NCBI GenBank assembly: GCA_963920705.1
Contig: OY987229.1
Span: 20,775,728 to 20,839,727, forward strand
DNA: 64,000 bases
Direction of reading: 5' to 3'
DNA from: Odiellus spinosus
Lineage: Eukaryota; Arthropoda; Arachnida; Opiliones; Phalangiidae
This document shows positions 35,801 through 38,800 of this stretch, one piece after another; within the stretch, counting starts at the first letter, position 1; each line of letters starts with the position of its first letter. A program made the position numbers and the translations under genes. The notes beneath the pieces were generated by a model. The model had not been told where the DNA came from and did no database searches. It saw nothing but the letters and a program-made list of their open reading frames with translations.

Positions 35801-38800
35801 GAAATACTTTAAACAGAAACAAGAAGAAACTATCGCTGAAAAACAATCCAGTGTAATGAAAGATTTGCAACAAGTAGAACCCGCAGTACTTGAAGCTCAG
35901 CAAGGCAAGTTCTATTAATTTTTTATTTTTAAGGTAATGGGTATTGGATCCTATTAAAACTGCGTGGTACAGTATTAACATATAATCCATGGTTTTAATT
36001 TTAAAACGGTGGGTATATCCTCCTTCAAAGTTTTTAGGCGTTCAATATGTTCTTGGTGAAATGTGATGTCAAAGTAGTAGTACAACTTATTTCTTATAAT
36101 ATTTTCAAGAAAATAAGGCAAATTAAAGTTCTACAAATCGCAAATAGTCCCAGACATGTTCAGCTAGATAGTAACTTAATTTTTTTACTATTTTCTAGGC
36201 TAAATGTCACTTTTACTTAAACCCTGACTTTGTTCTGAACTTAAGTGCCATCTGAAACTATTAAGTGGAAATATAATGTGTTAATAATAATTGAATAGGC
36301 TTAGGAAGGTTGTCTGATCAGAACTACAGACATTGAAGTCACATTTCGCCTATTGGCGACACTGTGCTTACAGATATTTTACTTTTAATCTGAAAACGAA
36401 TTGTTTTTAAACTTAAATCTTTTGAAGAAGAAACAAAAGATCACAAATCATAGTCATTCATGATAAATTGGAAATTTAATTTGGAAAATCTTAGGCTTCT
36501 TCCATATCATTCTTTGTAAAGATTATAATATACCACCTTGCATTTATCCCACAGAGTTGTCTAAATGATCTAATTAAAATAGGGAAAGTCTTTTAATCAC
36601 TCGCATCATTGCCATTTTTTATTTTGATTATTTCTTTGATTATTTTTATTCCTGAAAATTTATTTTCACCTTTTATTTTAAAAACCTTTTTTGCATGTTT
36701 GCATGGCTTTGATCATGCAGCTGTCAAATCAATTAAGAAGCAGCACTTGGTTGAACTCAAGTCAATGGCGAATCCGCCCAACCCTGTCAAGTTGGCCTTG
36801 GAGAGTATCTGCCTGCTTTTAGGCGAACCGACTCAAGAATGGAAGTCTATTAGATCAGTACTCATTAGAGACAATTTCATCAGTACTATCGTCAATTTTG
36901 AAGCTGATAATATCACGTAAGGACTATCTAGTGTGACTTAAAATAGCGCATTTTTTTCCCATCATGATTTTTGTTTTTGCTCATCTCATTTGCTTTACGT
37001 ACATGGTCTTTCTTAAACCAAACACGGGAAATTGAAAGTATTAACCTAATAGGATAAGCTTATCTTTGAAAGATGTTGCGACGAAAGACTGATTTCTAAT
37101 TATTCTTATCCTGTAGTTTCCTTCTACTAATTTTCTTCTAATTTTCCTCTTCCACCCCCACAAATATGCGCTTTCCGTTCTTAAATCTTGGCTATGCCAT
37201 TCCAAATTCGTGAGTTTAGCCGTGAAAGGAATCAAGCGTCAGCATCTGGTTGAAGTAAGATCTATGAGTAATCCTCCGCCACCAGTCAAGATGGCTATGG
37301 AATCCATTTGCCTTCTATTGGGTGAACCTTCGCCTGATTGGAAAGCAATTCGTTCCGTTATTATTCGTGAAAATTTCATACCTACCATTGTCAACTTTAA
37401 CCCTGAGCTACTGCTGTAAGCTACAATTGGAATGGCACTTTTGAGAGTGTGTCATACGCCCCCCTCTTAAGTGTACCCTCACTATCCCGCTTCTATCGTG
37501 CTTGCATTATTCCTTCCTCTTTCTAGAATATCCTTTTTCTAAATTTGGAATCGACATAACAATAACCCCCTTTTTAATCCAAGAAACAAAATAGTGCACA
37601 AATGAATAATTTTAACAGCAAATTATTTCACGCATCACTTATGATGAATATGTGATTTGACATTAAATTTCTTAAAGGGTGACAAGCAGCTGAATCCCAA
37701 AAATTGAGATTTTTTTCTGCATTGCAATTTATATTAATACTTAGCTACCTCAAAAATGAGGCTTGCAGAAGAGTTTATTATAGAAAGTTATGTTATCTGG
37801 GTCAATGAGAGCTTAAAATGATCTTGTTTAATTGCCTTCCCTTTAATTGTAGTTGATACTTGTTTGTTGAAGTCTTATATTTGAAGACTGTAGAATGAAC
37901 AAATTGTATTACAATTATCGGTAGAATTGCATTTCATTATAAATTTTATAATAGTTGAAGATTCACATATGGGAAAATATTTAGTACCAAAAAATAAGTG
38001 TTTAATAGTCATTTTAAAATGCATGCCATTCTTAATGTTCCAACATCAATTCAAAAATAAGCACTACCAAAATGTAATATTCCCTGCTTATCCAAGTTGG
38101 TGTTTGTGGAGATAGATGCGTGAAGAATTTATTATTTAGGATTTAAAATTAAATTTTACACAAATTTATCACTTGTCAGATTGAACACTGTCACAAATGT
38201 GGCAAGCATCTGACCCATGTTAAAATACATAATTATCTCCGCAAGCAGGCATCATATTCTCACTCACCAAGCTTGATTAATTTATGCTAGATATTTCTGC
38301 TTTGCATAAATATTGTGATTCATTATATAGTTATCTAATTTGGTATAAATTCAAATTTTATTTCATTTAAGGGATGATATTCGTAATAAGATGAAGAACA
38401 GATATCTTAATAACCCCGAATACAACTTTGAAAAAGTTAACAAAGCCAGTTTGGCTTGTGGGCCTATGGTGAAATGGGCAATTGCTCAGGTAAATTTAAT
38501 CTATATATATATTTATAAATATTTTCAGGTTATAATAACTGGGTATTTTCTTAAAGATTAACTACGCTGATATCTTAAAACAAGTTGAACCTTTGAGAAA
38601 TGAACTAAGTAATCTTGAATCTGCCGCTTCTGAAAACAAACAACGCGCGCAAGAGATTGATAGTGTTATTGAACATCTCGAGAAAAGCATCGCTTCTTAC
38701 AAAGAGGAATATGCTAACCTCGTTAGTCAAGCTCAGGCAATCAAGTCAGACTTGTCATCCGTTCAGGCAAAGGTTGATAGAAGTATTGCGCTCATAAAAA

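Follow-up and report, generated by a model that had tools for sequence, protein, structure and literature searches.

Results

Two homologous exons in a dynein-1 heavy-chain gene

The window analysed here, a 64,000-nucleotide (nt) stretch of the Odiellus spinosus genome (contig OY987229.1, positions 20,775,728 to 20,839,727), carries a cytoplasmic dynein-1 heavy-chain gene in which two tandem exons, here called A and B, very probably form a two-member mutually exclusive cassette. That this cassette is real, old and located in the microtubule-binding domain (MTBD) is well supported at the sequence level by frame logic, by saturated synonymous divergence together with purifying selection, by splice architecture and by the single-copy context; exclusive use in RNA is what we infer. 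The gene and the elements of the cassette are as follows.

21332..43883, plus strand: cytoplasmic dynein-1 heavy-chain gene (DYNC1H1/Dhc64C orthologue), exon-chain model with about 64 exons per message
35817..35904, plus strand: constitutive exon preceding the pair (CC1 stalk helix), with one leftover base at its end and a GC donor (AAG/GCAAGT)
35905..36720, plus strand: GC-AG intron before exon A, 816 nt, second longest in the model
36721..36916, plus strand: exon A, 196 nt, CAG/exon/GTAAGG; first codon split (A), protein end NFEADNI(T)
36917..37219, plus strand: intron between A and B, 303 nt
37220..37415, plus strand: exon B, 196 nt, TAG/exon/GTAAGC; first codon split (A), protein end NFNPELL(L)
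37416..38371, plus strand: intron after exon B, 956 nt, longest in the model
38372..38489, plus strand: constitutive exon following the pair (second half of the MTBD), with a strong acceptor

When A alone or B alone is joined from 35904 to 38372, the reading frame remains open, and the junction with the constant exon reads ADNITDDIRNK for A and PELLLDDIRNK for B. With neither exon, a stop is reached 7 codons past the wrong junction, and with both full exons, after 10. An earlier note, made from the letters of this DNA alone, had described two tandem 196-nt exons with equal phases, both intact and about two-thirds identical; the coordinates and lengths were verified, and the identity amounts to 125/196 nt and 45/66 residues. 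The note had further argued that only one exon at a time preserves the frame. This stands for the full exons, but that inclusion of both breaks the frame is valid for full exons only, because a cryptic acceptor at 37259 would splice A in frame to a shortened B. The pair was also correctly placed within the longest introns of the gene: after the two outer introns (816 and 956 nt), the third longest modelled intron has 648 nt, and the median is 75 nt. When 2283 stop-to-stop frames of at least 18 amino acids (aa), covering the whole window on both strands, were compared with one another as proteins (E up to 1e-3), A and B, plus the same pair antisense, were the sole similar pair inside the gene.

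By the matches of its MTBD region and of its first 718 modelled aa, the gene is a cytoplasmic dynein-1 heavy chain. The first 718 aa match residues 25-706 of DYNC1H1 with about 1100 bits; the MTBD region matches mammalian DYNC1H1 with 242 bits in the A form (E 2e-71) and 241 bits in the B form (E 3.6e-71), compared to only 70 and 65 bits, respectively, for the best dynein-2 or axonemal chain. Both isoforms cover positions 3-327 of the 344 of the Pfam MT profile (PF12777), scoring 131.8 bits for A and 124.8 bits for B. The exon chain is our own model, in which some exon edges are approximate; in its fuller version, 21 of the 25 anchor peptides were located, one of them a wrong-frame peptide. 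A protein search of the 443-Mb, 286-contig genome revealed no other close copy of this region of the gene; the remaining 16 of the 20 matches showed just 18-41% identity. A DNA search of the same genome returned a single occurrence each of exon A and exon B.

Age, divergence and selection

A and B are 64% identical in DNA and 68% identical in protein, with saturated synonymous differences (pS = 0.78) and a pN of only 0.23, which argues that both copies are old and constrained; on this substitution pattern, both are long under purifying selection. Identity is 45/66 between A and B, 49/66 between A and the mammalian sequence, 48/66 between B and the mammalian sequence, and 29/40 between the adjoining constant part of the MTBD and its mammalian counterpart (mammalian letters are those of DYNC1H1 chains aligned to the MTBD region), the 3-4 residue gaps between these counts being read as no difference, without a statistical test. 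Among the 21 positions at which A and B differ, the mammalian residue is kept by A at 8, by B at 7 and by neither at 6. Taken at face value, these counts would date the pair to roughly the divergence from vertebrates; the alternative to such great age is faster change following duplication.

Introns, splice sites and the proposed choice

Splice sites were scored by a leave-one-out procedure on our own exon chain, so the rankings are approximate, and the ranks weigh more than the scores; an exon edge judged misplaced (donor after 29830) and the model's exon that joins A to the shortened B were left out of the count. The outer sites of the cassette are strong. The upstream donor at 35905, which is GC and not GT, beats 59 of 60 other donors (positions +1 and +2 unscored), and the acceptor before 38372 beats 51 of 61 others. 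The inner sites are weak: acceptor B ranks lower than all 62 others, acceptor A is higher than only 4 of 62, and both inner donors fall under the median (A beats 14/61 and B beats 6/61). Strong outer sites combined with weak inner sites are the pattern expected of a regulated choice. A previous ranking, with the inner sites at or near the bottom, was discarded: its model had lost exons with weak sites, and the fuller model gave the milder picture reported here.

Two further signals lie close to the inner exons.

36589..36718, plus strand: AG-free stretch before exon A, 132 nt, longest among the 64 modelled acceptors
37125, in the middle intron: branch-point-like TACTAAT, one of two within the gene on this strand

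Separately from the cassette, a second likely GC-AG intron of the dynein gene was noted at 32603-32675 (GAG/GCTAGT), which we take to be in the AAA3 region.

We propose that the strong GC donor at 35905 and the strong acceptor before 38372 would commit the transcript to one inner exon and that, because the inner acceptors are weak, exon use would depend on trans-acting factors. Transcripts containing neither exon, or both full exons, would shift frame, run into a stop and presumably be removed by nonsense-mediated decay. The outcome would be one of two full-length heavy chains that differ, in the first half of the MTBD, at 21 of 66 residues.

A candidate regulator

Three copies of the hexamer TGCATG flank the pair.

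36692..36697 and 36700..36705, plus strand: two TGCATG motifs of Rbfox type, separated from exon A by 23 and 15 nt
38020, plus strand: single TGCATG in the intron after exon B

In the window, TGCATG is rarer than expected (15 vs. 22.8, both strands), and of the four plus-strand copies in the gene, three sit in the two outer introns flanking the pair; apart from those at 36692 and 36700, no two copies in the window, on either strand, are spaced by 10 nt or less. When the three introns were shuffled 5000 times, a close pair of TGCATG arose in 0.26% of the shuffles and 0 times in the final 60 nt of intron 1, figures that flatter the motif because it was chosen after inspection of the sequence. 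Rbfox sites upstream of an exon repress its use. Rbfox proteins bind (U)GCAUG and can activate or repress depending on position (PMC3424503; the papers cited here are represented by passages of their text). The genome encodes an Rbfox-like RRM in two pieces (81% identity over 36 aa and 77% over 26 aa), located on one contig and one strand, about 13 kb apart, whereas other RRM matches show 30-41%. Conceivably, a protein of the Rbfox type, sitting on the two predicted UGCAUG elements, would repress exon A where that protein is expressed, such that B is used; we consider this assignment tentative, and somewhat less probable than its absence.

What the swap would change in the microtubule-binding domain

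The swapped segment extends from A3293 to S3358 in the mouse numbering that the MTBD papers use. The mouse number was obtained as the position in the 4646-residue DYNC1H1 chains minus 2, an offset that we assume and under which K3299, R3337 and R3342 meet K, R and R in these chains. The swap starts past the conserved CC1 proline, which we take to be P3285, and includes the last turn of CC1, H1 and the following sequence up to about H4, where the helix ends are likewise our assumption. The stalk coiled coil itself is outside the swapped segment. Thus, of the earlier description, according to which the two exons encode the end of the stalk helix and the first part of the MTBD, the MTBD half holds, and the stalk share shrinks to the last turn of CC1; the accompanying argument from stalk register is weak because the coiled coil is not exchanged.

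In yeast dynein, salt bridges to tubulin are formed by K3117, E3122 and R3124 of H1, by R3152 and R3159 of H3, and by one residue on H6, and the loss of any positively charged salt-bridge residue weakens binding more than twofold (PMC7042235). In the mouse protein, K3299 adjoins D427 of beta-tubulin, R3337 lies near D163, and the movement of H1 is the only significant change upon binding (PMC6629372); the role of K3298 is disputed (PMC4987762). Mouse position 3334 is an arginine according to PMC7042235 and a lysine in the aligned sequence. At position 3299, exon A encodes K and exon B encodes R, and the same holds for position 3306, whereas K3298, E3304, K3334, R3337 and R3342 are identical in A and B (the H1 equivalences 3304 and 3306 come from our own alignment). 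Charge is therefore kept in both exons at 7/7 charged H1 and H3 positions examined. The biggest change affects the final six residues, EADNIT in A and NPELLL in B, compared to SAEEIS in mammals. Because charge is kept, with just two K/R swaps, the effect of the isoform choice is probably modest. The two forms, which the earlier note supposed to differ in track affinity or regulation, perhaps by tissue, may be slightly unlike in how tightly they hold the microtubule or in the H1 movement by which binding is coupled to the stalk; from these residues, affinity or coupling would be expected to be finely adjusted, with binding itself retained.

Alternative explanations

Of the possible accounts of the two copies, an assembly error or a very recent tandem duplication has a negligible probability. 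A recent assembly duplication of one copy was the finding that the earlier note had named as fatal to its reading, and the saturated synonymous sites and the 64% DNA identity argue against it; moreover, in a word-7 comparison with 200 nt of flank on either side, the surroundings of the two exons share nothing beyond the exon match except one 19-nt word (E 0.003, intron vs. exon) and chance words of 8-11 nt. It is also quite improbable that one copy is a relic, once used and now skipped. The rank of acceptor B, the weakest of those scored, would fit a relic, but both copies are open from end to end, agree in phase and have GT donors, and pN is only 0.23 at saturated synonymous sites; furthermore, a relic would drift faster, whereas the two copies have diverged from mammals about equally (8 vs. 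7 sites). More room is left, even if we regard it as unlikely, for a pair that is used but encodes two equivalent proteins: the seven charged positions that keep their charge in both exons are suggestive of equivalence, and the 21 of 66 differences, retained in a slowly evolving domain, are indicative of the opposite.

A comparably small probability attaches to a structural basis of exclusivity in place of one in frame and factors; the devices considered are steric hindrance between donor A and the B branch point, U2/U12 incompatibility and competing RNA pairing. A too-short middle intron and mixed intron classes, the signs of the first two devices, were not found in the cassette: at 303 nt, the middle intron is long enough for a gene with modelled introns down to 54-58 nt, and all splice sites appear U2-type by inspection. 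As for pairing, the global duplex energy of each pair of introns was compared with 60 shuffles. For the middle and downstream introns, it was under that of most shuffles, although not unusually so (6/60 as low); intron 1 paired no better than shuffles with either the middle intron (42/60 as low) or intron 3 (56/60 as low). Short inverted repeats were listed, without a chance baseline. Given the intron length, the U2-type sites and the absence of excess pairing, frame, decay and regulated choice appear to be the simplest account of exclusivity.

Several observations weigh against the preferred reading, that of a regulated, mutually exclusive cassette. The cryptic acceptor at 37259, which would yield an in-frame product with A and a shortened B, outscores the own acceptor of B (-2.64 vs. 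-5.18), and the splice-site rankings are approximate for the reason given above. No dedicated RNA structure emerges from the intron-intron comparison. With respect to the Rbfox-type element, besides the choice of the motif after the fact, three or more copies of TGCATG occurred in these introns in 3.1% of the shuffles, and a search of the genome for the Fox-1_C domain was empty, with its controls silent too.

Other features of the window and genome

Outside the dynein gene, the following features were recorded in the window.

2002-2481, minus strand: ADAM-like piece; Disintegrin match, E 2.2e-6, 28.8 bits, under the Pfam cut-off of 35.1
6172-7258, minus strand: actin gene; Pfam Actin, E 1.1e-69 on 6172-6717; 6686-7258 looks like the remainder by eye
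19308-19657: tandem array, 20-nt unit, 17.5 copies
45357-45875, minus strand: open frame, no Pfam match at 0.001; presumably resembling TBC1D7
48560-48919, plus strand: tyrosine phosphatase piece; Pfam Y_phosphatase, E 3e-17
49286-52942, plus strand: 1218-residue open frame after the phosphatase piece, of which it may be the tail

In the genome, overlapping six-unit matches to TTAGG, the telomere type fitting arthropods, numbered 7014 in the forward and 2583 in the reverse orientation, with 0 in the reversed control. Among the matches listed, these arrays are found at many internal places of one contig (C1), not just at its ends.

Precedent and comparison with known systems

Cytoplasmic dynein-1 is commonly regarded as a single motor in each animal, with its variation supplied by adaptors and light chains. 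If a choice between two MTBD halves is conserved, the track-binding step itself would be chosen by splicing, and natural MTBD variants with 21 differences, two of them at tubulin-contact positions, would help to separate the residues that set affinity from those that set coupling. The pair could even be an ancient device older than arthropods, perhaps shared with the pair of Schistosoma mansoni DHC1 (SmDHC1) discussed below, in which case many protostomes would build two dynein-1 motors with unlike feet from a single gene, Rbfox acting as the switch in nerve or muscle, and one form would have been lost in vertebrates; we consider this speculative and rather doubtful. The identity of A to B (45/66), no closer than that of either to mammals (49/66 and 48/66), fits an ancient cassette without proving it, and the single form present in mammals and yeast would explain why such a pair had been overlooked.

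Among open-access papers, as far as their passages go, no report of an exon pair in the MTBD of an arthropod dynein heavy chain was found, most subscription papers and genome annotation being outside this scope; the pair may be annotated elsewhere, including in automatic isoform models of many arthropods. For Dhc64C, multiple maternally deposited isoforms are described, with the exons unspecified in the passage concerned (PMC5147784). Splice forms of the dynein heavy chain are unmentioned in the passages drawn from a paper on arthropod motors (PMC2674883). In a study of fly Dhc MTBD mutants (PMC11215527), the words 'exon' and 'splice' are absent, and the only 'isoform' is in the reference list. 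Nothing relevant to the exon pair stands in the passages from PMC3583065, PMC10916854 and PMC10289029. Scans of genome-contig and viral-contig collections with the alignment of A, B and the mammalian sequence gave 99 and 32 pattern matches, respectively, none of which was confirmed; as neither collection consists of animal genomes, the scans carry no information on animals.

A mutually exclusive exon pair is in print for SmDHC1 (PMC3228551). Like A and B, the SmDHC1 exons belong to a cytoplasmic dynein heavy chain, have equal lengths and strong similarity, and split codons at both ends; they differ in coming from a flatworm, and the likeness is one of description, the passages of that paper being without residue numbers. 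The mutually exclusive exon clusters of arthropod muscle myosin heavy chain (Mhc) share with the present pair the principle that one motor gene swaps homologous exons and thereby varies a mechanical part (PMC3228551; see also PMC2257972), but there the motor is a different one and the clusters are several, many of them in the motor domain, whereas here a single pair lies in the track-binding domain. Variation of the dynein foot between motors is likewise known from the comparison of DNAH7, which has a flap, with dynein-1 (PMC6629372); in that case, the variants are encoded by separate genes, whereas in Odiellus spinosus they would come from two exons of one gene, with no insertion.
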